64,000 nucleotides of DNA, from NCBI RefSeq assembly GCF_023897065.1, contig NZ_JAMHIV010000011.1:1-64000 (forward strand). Direction: 5' to 3'. Below are positions 39,035-42,935 of this stretch, piece by piece. Every line of letters begins with the position of its first letter. Position 1 is the first letter of the stretch. A program made the translations under genes and the position numbers. The notes below the pieces were generated by a model that was not told the origin of the DNA, did no database searches, and saw only the letters and a list, made by a program, of their open reading frames with translations. Origin of the DNA: Crossiella sp. SN42. Lineage in GTDB: Bacteria; Actinomycetota; Actinomycetes; Mycobacteriales; Pseudonocardiaceae.

Positions 39035-40951
39035 TCAGACCTTGTCGCGGGTCTTGGCGCGAGAGCGCTCGCGGCCGCGCAGGGTGCTGTCCAGGATGAG
39101 CTTGCGGACGCGGATGACCGTGGGGGTCACCTCGACGCACTCGTCGCTGGAGCAGAACTCCAGGGCCTCTTCCAGGCTCAGCTTGCGCGGGCGGGCCAGG
39201 CGCTCCAGCTCGTCGCCGGTGGAGGAGCGCATGTTGGTGAGCTTCTTCTCCCGGCAGACGTTGACGTCCAGGTCCTCCGAGCGCGGGTTCTCGCCGACGA
39301 CCATGCCCTCGTATGCCTCGGCGCCCGGCTCCACGAAGAAGGTGCCGCGGTCGGCCAGCTGGATCATCGCGTAGCTGGTGACCTGGCCGGTGCGGTCGCA
39401 GACCAGCGAGCCGGTGTGCCGGGTGCGCAGCTCGCCGACCCACGGGAAGTAGCCCTCGAAGACGTGGTTGGCGATGCCGGCGCCACGGGTCTCGGTGAGG
39501 AACTCGGTGCGGAAGCCGATCAGACCGCGGGCCGGGACCACGTAGTCCAGCTTGATCCGGCCGGTGCCGTGGCCGGACATGTTCTCCATCCGGCCCTTGC
39601 GGTTGGCCAGCAGCTGGGTGACCGCGCCGAGGTGCTCCTCGGGGGTGTCCACGGTGAGCCGCTCGAACGGCTCGCACAGCTGGCCGTCGATGGTGCGGGT
39701 GACCACCTGCGGCTTGCCCACGGTCAGCTCGAAGCCCTCGCGGCGCATCTGCTCGACCAGGATGGCCAGCGCCAGCTCGCCACGGCCCTGCACCTCCCAG
39801 GTGTCCGGGCGCTCGGTGGGCAGCACCTTGACGCTGACGTTGCCGACCAGCTCGTTGTCCAGGCGGGCCTTGACCAGGCGGGCGGTCAGCTTGTCGCCGC
39901 CGTTGCGACCGGCCATCGGGGAGGTGTTCACACCGATGGTCATGGAGATCGCGGGCTGGTCCACGGTGATCCGGGGCAGCGGGTCCGGGTTGTCCAGGTC
40001 GGCGAGGGTGTCGCCGATGGTGATCTCCGGGATGCCCGCGATGGCGACCAGCTCACCGGCGGAGGCGACCTCGGCGGGCACCCGCTCCAGCGCCTCGGTG
40101 ATCAGCAGCTCGGTGATCTTGACCTTCTGCGTGCTGCCGTCCTCGCGGCACCAGGACACCCACTCGCCCTTGCGGATCTTGCCCGCGTGGATGCGGCAGA
40201 GCGCGATGCGGCCGAGGAAGGCCGAGGCGTCCAGGTTGGTGACCAGGGCGCGCAGCGGGGCCTCGGCGTCGCCGGTGGGCGGCGGCACGTGCTCCAGCAG
40301 CACGTCGAAGAGGACGTCCAGGTTCTCCGCGTCCGGCAGGCCGCCGTCGGCGGGCTGCTCCAGGCTGGCCTTGCCGGCGCGGGCGGAGGCGTAGACGACC
40401 GGGAGGTCGAGCACGGCCGACATGTCCAGGTGCTCGACACCCTCGGCGTCGAGGTCGGAGGCCAGCTCCAGGAGCAGGTCGTGGGTCTCCTCGACCACCT
40501 CGGAGATGCGCGCGTCCGGGCGGTCCACCTTGTTGACCACGAGGATCACCGGCAGGCCGGCGGCCAGGGTCTTGCGCAGCACGAAGCGGGTCTGCGGCAG
40601 CGGGCCCTCGCTGGCGTCCACCAGCAGCACCACGCCGTCGACCATGGCCAGGCCACGCTCGACCTCGCCGCCGAAGTCGGCGTGACCGGGGGTGTCGACC
40701 ACGTTGATGGTCATCACGCCCTCGGCGGTGTGCCGCTTCACCGCGGTGTTCTTGGCGAGAATGGTGATGCCCTTCTCGCGCTCCAGCTCACCGGAGTCCA
40801 TGACGCGGTCGACCAGCTCGGCGCGGGCGGCGAAGGCCCCCGACTGCCGGAGCATGGCGTCGACGAGAGTGGTCTTGCCATGGTCGACGTGCGCGACGAT
40901 GGCGATGTTGCGAAGATCGGTCCTGACGGTGGCTGGCGCGGCGGTGGGCAC
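39035..40951 (-). CDS. typA: Ribosome-associated GTPase TypA/BipA
   Basis: 638-aa translational GTPase. G1 [17 protein letters not shown]3 [14 protein letters not shown] and G4 NKVDRP are intact, followed by domain II ([19 protein letters not shown]), EF-G-like domains III and V ([29 protein letters not shown]) and a C-terminal domain. It acts on ribosomes under stress and in assembly. The GTG at 40951 is chosen because GAGGAG lies 6 nt upstream; the longer frame to 41017 has no Shine-Dalgarno. Divergent from the small iron-box gene; the shared region holds the DtxR-like box at 41067. Confidence 0.95.
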
Positions 40952-41066
40952 GCGAAACTCCTCGGAATCTGCCTGTTGGGAGATGGCCACCGGCTTCTGC
41001 GCCGCTTTGTAGCCCACCCCATGCTATCCGCCCTGGAGCGACTCCCCGGACGGATCCCCTGAATGA

Positions 41067-41085
41067 TCAGGTAAGCCTAACCTAC
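41067..41085 (+). promoter_or_regulatory. Candidate DtxR/IdeR iron box
   Basis: TCAGGTAAGCCTAACCTAC matches the IdeR consensus TTAGGTTAGGCTAACCTAA at 15 of 19 positions. It overlaps the candidate -10 TACGAT (41083-41088) of the microprotein gene, placing a repressor where it would block RNA polymerase under iron-replete conditions. Confidence 0.65.
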
Positions 41086-41119
41086 GATGGGGGCAACCTC
41101 AGGGAGTGGGAGCCACACA

Positions 41120-41230
41120 GTGGGCAAGGTCAAGAAGAAGTGCTGCCGCTCGAAACCGCGGTGCAAACGTTGTCCGGTACTTGCGCTGAAAAAGGCCAAA
41201 GAGAAGTTAAAGAAAAAGCAAGAACGCTGA
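41120..41230 (+). CDS. 36-aa Cys/Lys-rich microprotein
   Basis: Short ORF, GTG to TGA, 36 residues: MGKVKKKCCRSKPRCKRCPV, then LALKKAKEKLKKKQER. Four Cys (8, 9, 15, 18; C-C-x5-C-x2-C) and 13 Lys plus 4 Arg. The Cys pattern could hold a metal or cluster; the tail is a basic helix likely to bind nucleic acid or the ribosome. GGAG lies 8 nt upstream of the GTG. The second half is unusually A-rich for this genome and has a TTA leucine codon (codon 30), a codon read by the bldA tRNA in streptomycetes. Preceded by a candidate iron box. I recall similar small CCxxxCxxCP proteins in actinobacteria but cannot name a family. Confidence 0.7.
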   Translation: MGKVKKKCCRSKPRCKRCPVLALKKAKEKLKKKQER

Positions 41231-41339: not shown

Positions 41340-41648
41340 TCAGCTGGCGAGGAGCTCGTTGTAGGCGAGGAAGGCCGGGGCGGTCCGGGAGGCCTCGAAG
41401 TCGATCACCTCGTGCCGGACGACTCGGCGCAGCTTGAAGGGGTCGGTGGCCAGGATCGCGTCGAGGTGGCCGCGCAGCATCGGACGCGTGACGATGAGCC
41501 GGTCGTGCGCGGTGCCCATGGTCCGGCAGCGGCCGGAGAGCAGGAAGTGGCCTGCCTCGTACTGCCGGTCGAGCCACGCTGCATGCTCCGGCAGTACCAA
41601 ATCGACCTCGCTGGTCGACGCGGTGTAGTTCAGCAGCACGATGTACAT
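41340..41648 (-). CDS. YciI-like protein
   Basis: 102-aa YciI/DGPF-type ferredoxin-like protein: MYIVLLNYTASTSEVDLVLPEHAAWLDRQYEAGHFLLSGRC, with the conserved His (EHAAWL) and RPMLRGHLDAILATDPFKLRRVV. YciI proteins are small dimers with putative hydrolase/dehydrohalogenase-like activity; function is not established. ATG at 41648. It is isolated, on the strand opposite to its neighbours, between the microprotein and the trpS leader. Confidence 0.85.
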   Translation of the reverse strand: MYIVLLNYTASTSEVDLVLPEHAAWLDRQYEAGHFLLSGRCRTMGTAHDRLIVTRPMLRGHLDAILATDPFKLRRVVRHEVIDFEASRTAPAFLAYNELLAS

Positions 41649-41963: not shown

Positions 41964-42935
41964 ATGACCCAGTTCTCCGGCATCCAGCCGACCGGCCTGA
42001 CCCACCTGGGCAACTACCTCGGCGCGATCCGGCAGTGGGCCGCCCGGCATCACCGGGATGATCTTTTCTGCGTCGTTGACCTGCACGCGATGACCATCCG
42101 GCATAACCCGAACGTGTTGCGCGCCCGTGCCAGAGAGCAACTGGCGATGCTCATCGCGGCTGGAGTGAATCCGGACATCGCGTGCGTTTTCACCCAGTCG
42201 GACCTCATCCAGGAGCATGCCGCGCTGACCTGGGTGCTGGAGTGCGTGGTCTCCTACGGCGAGCTGGCCAGGATGACCCAGTTCAAGGACAAGGCCAAGG
42301 GCCAGGACGGGGTGCGCGCCGGGCTGTTCACCTACCCGGTGCTGATGGCCGCGGACATCCTGCTGCACGGCGCGGAGGAGGTGCCGGTCGGCGAGGACCA
42401 GCGCCAGCACCTGGAACTGGCCCGCACGCTGGCCAAACGCTTCAACGCTACCTACGGCGAGGTGCTCACCGTGCCCAGGGCGGTGACGCCCAGGGTGGCC
42501 GCGCGGGTGGCCGACCTGGCCGCGCCGGAGCGGAAGATGTCCAAGTCCAGCGGCGACCAGTCCGGCACCGTGCTGGTGCTGGACCCGCCGGAGCTGATCC
42601 GCCGCAAGATCATGCGCGCGGTCACCGACCAGGTCGGCGAGGTCCGCTACGCCCCGGAGAGCCAGCCGGGGGTGAGCAACCTGCTGGACATCCTGGCCGC
42701 CTGCACCAACGGCGAGCCCAGGGCGCTGGCCGAGCAGATCAGTGGCTACGCCGAGCTGAAGGAGCGCACGGCGGAGGCGGTGATCGAGGAGCTGCGGCCG
42801 GTGCGCGAGGGCGTGCGGGAGCTGCTGGCCGACCCGGCCGAACTGGACCAGCTCCGGGCGCACGGGGCCGAGCGGGCGCGGGCCGGGTGCGCGCACCGGC
42901 TGGAGGCGGTGCTCAAGGTGACCGGGCTGCGTTGA
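41964..42935 (+). CDS. trpS: Tryptophanyl-tRNA synthetase (auxiliary type, attenuator-controlled)
   Basis: 323-aa class Ic synthetase. The HIGH-like motif is THLGNYLG within MTQFSGIQPTGLTHLGNYLG, the conserved helix reads VVDLHAMTI, the tRNA/adenylate regions are MTQFKDKAKGQDG and LMAADILLHGAEEVPVGEDQRQHLELAR, and KMSKS occurs in RKMSKSSGDQSG. ATG at 41964 with GGGGAG 8 nt upstream. The Streptomyces auxiliary indolmycin-resistant TrpRS1 is controlled by ribosome-mediated attenuation (Vecchione and Sello), and this gene has the same architecture. Whether it is the sole TrpRS of the organism cannot be told from the window. Drug resistance is an inference only. Confidence 0.93.
   Translation: MTQFSGIQPTGLTHLGNYLGAIRQWAARHHRDDLFCVVDLHAMTIRHNPNVLRARAREQLAMLIAAGVNPDIACVFTQSDLIQEHAALTWVLECVVSYGELARMTQFKDKAKGQDGVRAGLFTYPVLMAADILLHGAEEVPVGEDQRQHLELARTLAKRFNATYGEVLTVPRAVTPRVAARVADLAAPERKMSKSSGDQSGTVLVLDPPELIRRKIMRAVTDQVGEVRYAPESQPGVSNLLDILAACTNGEPRALAEQISGYAELKERTAEAVIEELRPVREGVRELLADPAELDQLRAHGAERARAGCAHRLEAVLKVTGLR

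Follow-up and report, generated by a model that had tools for sequence, protein, structure and literature searches.

Genes under the control of IdeR are repressed at high iron and expressed at low iron, and in mycobacteria this regulator is said, in the title of one paper, to induce the ferritin gene bfrB. The closest described counterpart of the gene analysed here is Bfd, which hands electrons to bacterioferritin or removes iron from it (PMC7762939, in its accessible text). In Mycobacterium tuberculosis, bfd and bfrA are transcribed divergently, with bfd under IdeR control, and even there the part played by Bfd is called speculation in the accessible sections of the source (PMC5218490). A second point of reference is provided by FbpA, FbpB and FbpC of Bacillus subtilis, small basic proteins regulated by Fur that have been suggested to be RNA chaperones, FbpB being 48 aa long (PMC7430163, in the portion available). 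In the window (the whole 64,000-nucleotide stretch of Crossiella sp. SN42 DNA that was analysed), the sequence comparisons presented here lend good support to the existence of a genuine gene whose product, a tiny and strongly basic protein with four cysteines (hereafter, the microprotein), belongs to an old actinobacterial family. This is a predicted member of the iron regulon of many genera that is covered by no Pfam or NCBIfam model.

The features of the locus are collected in Table 1. The microprotein contains 13 Lys and 4 Arg among its 36 residues, has a net charge of about +15, and carries its four Cys in the pattern CC-x5-C-x2-C; the GC content of the ORF is 50%, compared to 72.6% for the window. 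The first-pass annotation had described a GTG-started 36-aa ORF with four Cys, 17 Lys/Arg, a TTA codon and a Shine-Dalgarno sequence, and a composition unlike that of its surroundings; reading of the sequence bears out all these points. An alternative in-frame ATG at 41087 would yield a 47-aa microprotein. The GTG start is favoured because the relatives begin with M/V-G-K and because two of the three other loci of the genus have no in-frame ATG at that place. The TTA codon is retained in the other loci of the genus, and the C-terminal KQER represents four extra residues of the window copy, the three other genomes of the genus ending at KEKLKK. On the downstream side, a small gene (41340-41648, minus strand) that we take to be YciI-like lies between the microprotein gene and trpS and recurs at many of the 80 named loci described below. 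Immediately 5' of the trpS-like gene at 41964, the segment 41811-41960 combines a short ORF (MRLMSSLWRAAHRRP) with GC-rich sequence that resembles a hairpin, a possible leader or attenuator of that gene.

Table 1. Features of the microprotein locus, in coordinates of the window
Feature	Position	Strand	Remarks
typA/bipA-like GTPase gene	39035..41017	-	divergent across the operator; from the ORF list
IdeR/DtxR operator (predicted)	41067..41085	.	near-palindrome TCAGGTAAGCCTAACCTAC; 16/19 on the - strand, 15/19 on the +
Possible -10 element, TACGAT	41083..41088	+	overlaps the operator end; putative, by sequence reading
Shine-Dalgarno-like GGGAG	41108..41112	+	7 nt 5' of the GTG, by sequence reading
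Microprotein gene	41120..41230	+	36 aa; GTG start; stop TGA 41228-41230; CC-x5-C-x2-CP; one TTA codon

The microprotein frame is under purifying selection: among 72 distinct 18-codon cores, the pN/pS ratio is 0.27 in this frame, compared to 1.59 and 1.57 when the frame is shifted. Within the genus, 36 synonymous differences are observed versus a single non-synonymous one (summed over pairs of four loci, two of which, L004 and L066, apparently come from one genome). Sixteen close members of the family all share Lys7, Cys8, Cys9, Cys15, Cys18 and the Pro that follows Cys18, and the same positions, except for Lys7, are invariant in 15 wider members; the invariance of the Cys is partly by construction because possession of CC-x5-C-x2-C was the criterion by which loci were chosen. 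In one relative (L018), the spacing is CC-x6-C-x2-C and the operator score 12/19. AlphaFold2 models the window peptide as an extended Cys loop followed by a helix at residues 19-35 (mean pLDDT 86), and a Mycobacterium relative as two helices, 26-38 and 43-54 (mean pLDDT 83). The description of the microprotein as basic and metal-binding agrees with the conserved Cys and Lys positions, the basic part standing as given and the Cys pattern having in part been selected for; metal binding is, in our judgement, very probable.

The operator was scored against a 19-bp consensus that we take to be that of IdeR/DtxR. It is the sole site with at most 3 mismatches in the window (0/100 shuffles contained one), and the 9.7 Mb genome contains 15 such matches at 11 distinct places, compared to 0 for the reversed control pattern. 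Five of the 10 other genomic boxes adjoin siderophore, haem or ferric-iron genes according to Pfam, namely, a Lys/Orn monooxygenase together with a chorismate-binding enzyme (L165), a Peripla_BP_2 protein (L166), a heme oxygenase (L172), an FhuF_C protein (L174) and a siderophore-interacting protein (L175). By eye, the neighbours of boxes L171 and L173 are haem-uptake-like and NRPS-like; a DAHP synthase and an oxidoreductase lie beside box L167, with an unclear link to iron. Two further boxes mark candidate additional members of the regulon: L168 (contig C82, 17/19), at an O-methyltransferase gene, and L170 (contig C9, 16/19), with no clear iron gene beside it. The genome encodes two PF02742 matches over the cut-off, and one of its proteins matches the Saccharopolyspora IdeR structure 7b1v with an E-value of 1.8e-111. 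The 15/19 box placed over the -10 element by the first-pass annotation thus stands as a box, with that score on the plus strand; its overlap with a -10 is plausible, and a promoter scan at the locus detected no site of the sigma-70 type.

The first search, with a single query, found the microprotein gene in 19 of 41 genomes (the genome of the window, 3/3 others of the genus and 15/21 of the family) and in none of the 16 genomes of other families. Eighteen of these 19 loci, that of the window included, show the strict motif, and every one of the eighteen has a box of at least 13/19. A larger set consists of 80 named loci, the best 80 of 229 found, which represent the family of the window and Mycobacterium and include many from Amycolatopsis. 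A box of at least 13/19 is present within 250 bp in 68 of these 80 loci versus 3 of 3369 control windows, which were taken elsewhere in these loci and are mostly coding. The 12 misses comprise nine Mycobacterium/Mycolicibacterium loci and one each from Actinomycetospora, Saccharothrix and Amycolatopsis, the latter two scoring 12/19 each. Across the order, the gene is present in 112 of 298 genomes, 48 of these in the same family. Of 64 loci in other families, 60 were analysed, 16 of them in genus g29, which appears to be Mycobacterium-like judging from its peptides and gene neighbours, and 44 outside it. Outside g29, the box scores at least 13/19 in 33/44 loci and at least 12/19 in 37/44; within g29, the operator is found in 0/16 loci. 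In the controls for these families, 0/60 downstream windows reached 12/19, and among 1200 shuffles, 11 scored 13/19 and 59 scored 12/19.

At the level of the phylum, the microprotein gene was identified in 17 of 396 genomes. Seven loci are from outside the class, G471 having been found with the first model only, and four of the seven (G679, G471, G503 and G407) contain an exact TTAGG-N4-CCTAA; the half-site scores of the other three are 9/10 (G428), 8/10 (G638) and 5/10 (G629), and those of two loci from other orders of the class (G617 and G519) are 6/10. A designed half site that contains two CCTAA motifs is occupied by a single dimer of the Saccharopolyspora IdeR, according to the accessible part of PMC8464063; by our own derivation, TTAGG-N4-CCTAA is that half site. 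The 37 IdeR sites of Saccharopolyspora erythraea in Table S2 of the same, partly accessible, paper may include the site of the microprotein gene. Checked across relatives, both the reading frame and the box proved to be conserved, the absence of either being what the first-pass annotation had named as speaking against its reading. The iron control proposed in that annotation fares well, to judge from the sequence: the predicted operator accompanies the gene in different families and classes, and the same box marks siderophore and haem genes in the genome. The microprotein gene is thus almost certainly to be placed, as a prediction, under the control of iron via IdeR. Iron-loaded IdeR, the regulator of the DtxR family, would repress it, so that the microprotein would be made when iron is short.

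Ferritin adjoins the microprotein gene in 20 of the 60 loci (801 bp each) from other families, with the gene names at the linked loci assigned by eye. The linkage is complete in families f16 (16/16) and f2 (3/3), is found at 1/3 loci of f3, and is missing in f8 (0/33) and f4 (0/5). Nineteen of the ferritin neighbours are divergent from the microprotein gene and one (G143) is transcribed in the same direction. At the divergent loci, the box scores at least 13/19 in 18 cases and 12/19 in one; in those whose spacing was determined, between 0 and about 25 bases separate its end from the start of the microprotein gene, and it stands 31-111 bp before the ferritin start. Outside the class, ferritin is divergent at G679 and G407 and convergent at G471, with no ferritin in the stretches examined near G428, G629 and G638. 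Altogether, this is perhaps four or five independent linkages, the 16 f16 cases counting as one lineage. No ferritin was detected in any of the 80 named loci (8-12 kb; the family of the window and Mycobacterium) or beside the microprotein gene in the window, typA being the neighbour in f8 and in the family of the window. The ferritin of the genome itself is encoded elsewhere, with a 14/19 box upstream. At another locus, L254 (G503, another class), the microprotein gene with its exact half-site is followed by a Fur-family-like gene and then by a ferritin-like gene (by eye), so that two kinds of iron regulator meet at one locus. Shared regulation alone could explain the linkage to ferritin. The linkage, which lay outside the reach of the first-pass annotation, points away from the contact with RNA, DNA or the ribosome that the annotation had suggested as a possibility.

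Our tentative proposal, which we consider possible rather than probable, is that the microprotein helps to recover iron from heme-free (Ftn-type) ferritin, as Bfd does for bacterioferritin. The Cys would be the ligands of a metal centre, for which an iron-sulfur cluster is the best candidate, and at low iron, the microprotein would pass electrons to, or take iron from, heme-free ferritin. At the divergent loci, with the IdeR operator between the two genes, IdeR with iron would silence the microprotein gene and favour ferritin, both effects being reversed once iron is lost. In the genus of the window, the same operator is located beside typA, and the microprotein would act on the ferritin encoded elsewhere. 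The exit of iron from heme-free ferritins in actinobacteria is a process on which the microprotein would give a direct handle; with 36-60 residues, an iron operator and linkage to ferritin in several lineages, the members of the family are small enough to synthesise. The proposal can be extended to a phylum-wide family whose members would pair with ferritin in a two-way switch operated by IdeR. They would be a non-homologous counterpart of Bfd, releasing the iron of heme-free ferritin by reduction or through a cluster, with iron control lost in Mycobacterium, where a true Bfd is present. In this extended form, we regard the proposal as doubtful.

The distribution of Bfd is suggestive only, and in effect represents one lineage. 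All 34 examined genomes of g29, which were chosen among genomes listed for a PF04324 match, score 74-123 bits against a Bfd model that was itself built from four g29 proteins, the best-matching frame being 61-280 codons long; the microprotein gene is absent in 18 of these genomes and lacks a box in the other 16. Among 13 other genomes, picked for having the microprotein gene, seven show no Bfd match and six match at only 22-37 bits, in frames of 493-2011 codons, one of them also in a 109-codon frame with a stop. The expected mutual exclusion of Bfd and the microprotein within g29 failed, given that the Bfd model matches 34/34 genomes, with or without the microprotein. The genome of the window contains four PF04324 matches, and may encode a stand-alone Bfd because only the best of the four, in a 519-codon frame, is among the matches listed. 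As a separate observation, a search of the 300 bp upstream of four g29 Bfd genes (L264-L267) gave no IdeR box better than a poor 9-10/19, whereas bfd of M. tuberculosis is reported to be IdeR-regulated in the accessible text of PMC5218490.

An RNA-binding, iron-sparing factor, in which the Cys hold zinc or sense iron-sulfur status, is a rather unlikely alternative. To our knowledge, actinobacteria have no classical Hfq, and 17 Lys/Arg among 36 residues, with a charge near +15, fit nucleic-acid binding; the microprotein would then be a candidate protein partner of iron-sparing RNAs in actinobacteria. The Fur-regulated small basic Fbp proteins provide a precedent, although RNA binding by FbpB itself is described as lacking experimental evidence (both according to the available portion of PMC7430163). 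Such a function does not predict the repeated linkage to ferritin.

An improbable alternative is that the microprotein is a ribosome-associated zinc peptide acting together with its divergent neighbour, which we take from its sequence to be TypA/BipA. A typA relative is located upstream, on the opposite strand, in 74 of the 80 named loci, including 9/9 Mycobacterium loci without a box; in 72 cases it is no more than 700 bp away. Strongly basic Cys peptides are found on ribosomes. However, the gene and the box persist next to a neighbour other than typA in Actinomycetospora, at the ferritin-linked loci of f16, f2 and f3, and at the loci of other classes; neither does the Pfam model of the ribosomal protein bL36 match the microprotein. 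Identity with bL36 was rejected: the only PF00444 match of the genome is on another contig, with none for the window peptide. In Actinomycetospora, no typA was found in 6/6 loci (8-12 kb), and 5/6 retain the box, which indicates that the box belongs to the microprotein gene. The possibility that the operator is an element of typA only was rejected, the box staying with the microprotein gene where typA was not detected or is distant.

Equally improbable is a metal-free effector: the microprotein would sense iron-sulfur status or iron and, in its empty state, act as a regulator of ferritin, IdeR or some other protein. The conserved Cys8, Cys9, Cys15 and Cys18 and the iron operator are compatible with this function, as is the motif C-x6-C-x2-CP, which corresponds to the first three ligand positions of MutY/Nth and yields very weak matches to MutY models (E-values of 0.17 and 0.13 in NCBIfam); the fourth MutY ligand is absent, however, and these matches are far below the curated cut-offs. 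A plain metal buffer or chaperone that holds or delivers iron or zinc under iron shortage, and has no particular function at ferritin, would also account for four conserved Cys and an iron operator, but is scarcely probable with only four Cys and with conserved Lys positions and a Pro after Cys18 that suggest a defined site and a partner.

The recovery of iron from heme-free ferritin thus remains our preferred, if tentative, reading, and the family can be compared with several described ones. No Pfam or NCBIfam model matches the microprotein above the cut-off, and no sequence relative was found in the PDB, in accord with the statement in the first-pass annotation that the family could not be named. 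Apart from the MutY models, the sub-threshold matches include a rhodanese-related model (E-value of 0.013) and a few Pfam models at E-values of 0.03-0.2. A literature search by peptide string and by topic, covering titles, the beginnings of abstracts and passages of selected papers, retrieved no description of the family.

Compared with FbpA, FbpB and FbpC, the microprotein is likewise small, basic and, by prediction, iron-repressed; the Fbp proteins are under Fur and the microprotein would be under IdeR, and the likeness is one of description. The C-terminal [2Fe-2S] motif of FhuF shares with the microprotein the adjacent CC followed by C-x2-C-P. The FhuF_C protein of the genome, encoded beside an IdeR box, has the pattern CC-x10-C-x2-CP, the spacing in the microprotein being 5, not 10, and FhuF has a reductase body that the microprotein lacks; membership in FhuF_C (PF11575) was rejected, a genome-wide search up to an E-value of 10 giving six places, none of them at the microprotein ORF. 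The iron-sulfur loop of MutY and endonuclease III (Nth) has the form C-x6-C-x2-C-x5-C. The microprotein similarly contains C-x6-C-x2-C-P with basic residues between, but has no fourth Cys and has an extra Cys after the first; membership was rejected as the fourth Cys is absent in all 16 and 15 aligned members. The microprotein is not a member of the Bfd family either, given the different Cys pattern, CC-x5-C-x2-C compared to C-x-C-x32-C-x2-C in Bfd (PMC11133741, in its accessible text), and no PF04324 match in the Pfam scan. The resemblance to Bfd is that of a very small Cys protein with predicted control by iron starvation and, at some loci of other families and outside the class, a gene beside a ferritin-type gene, with bacterioferritin being the partner of Bfd, and heme-free ferritin, the proposed partner of the microprotein.
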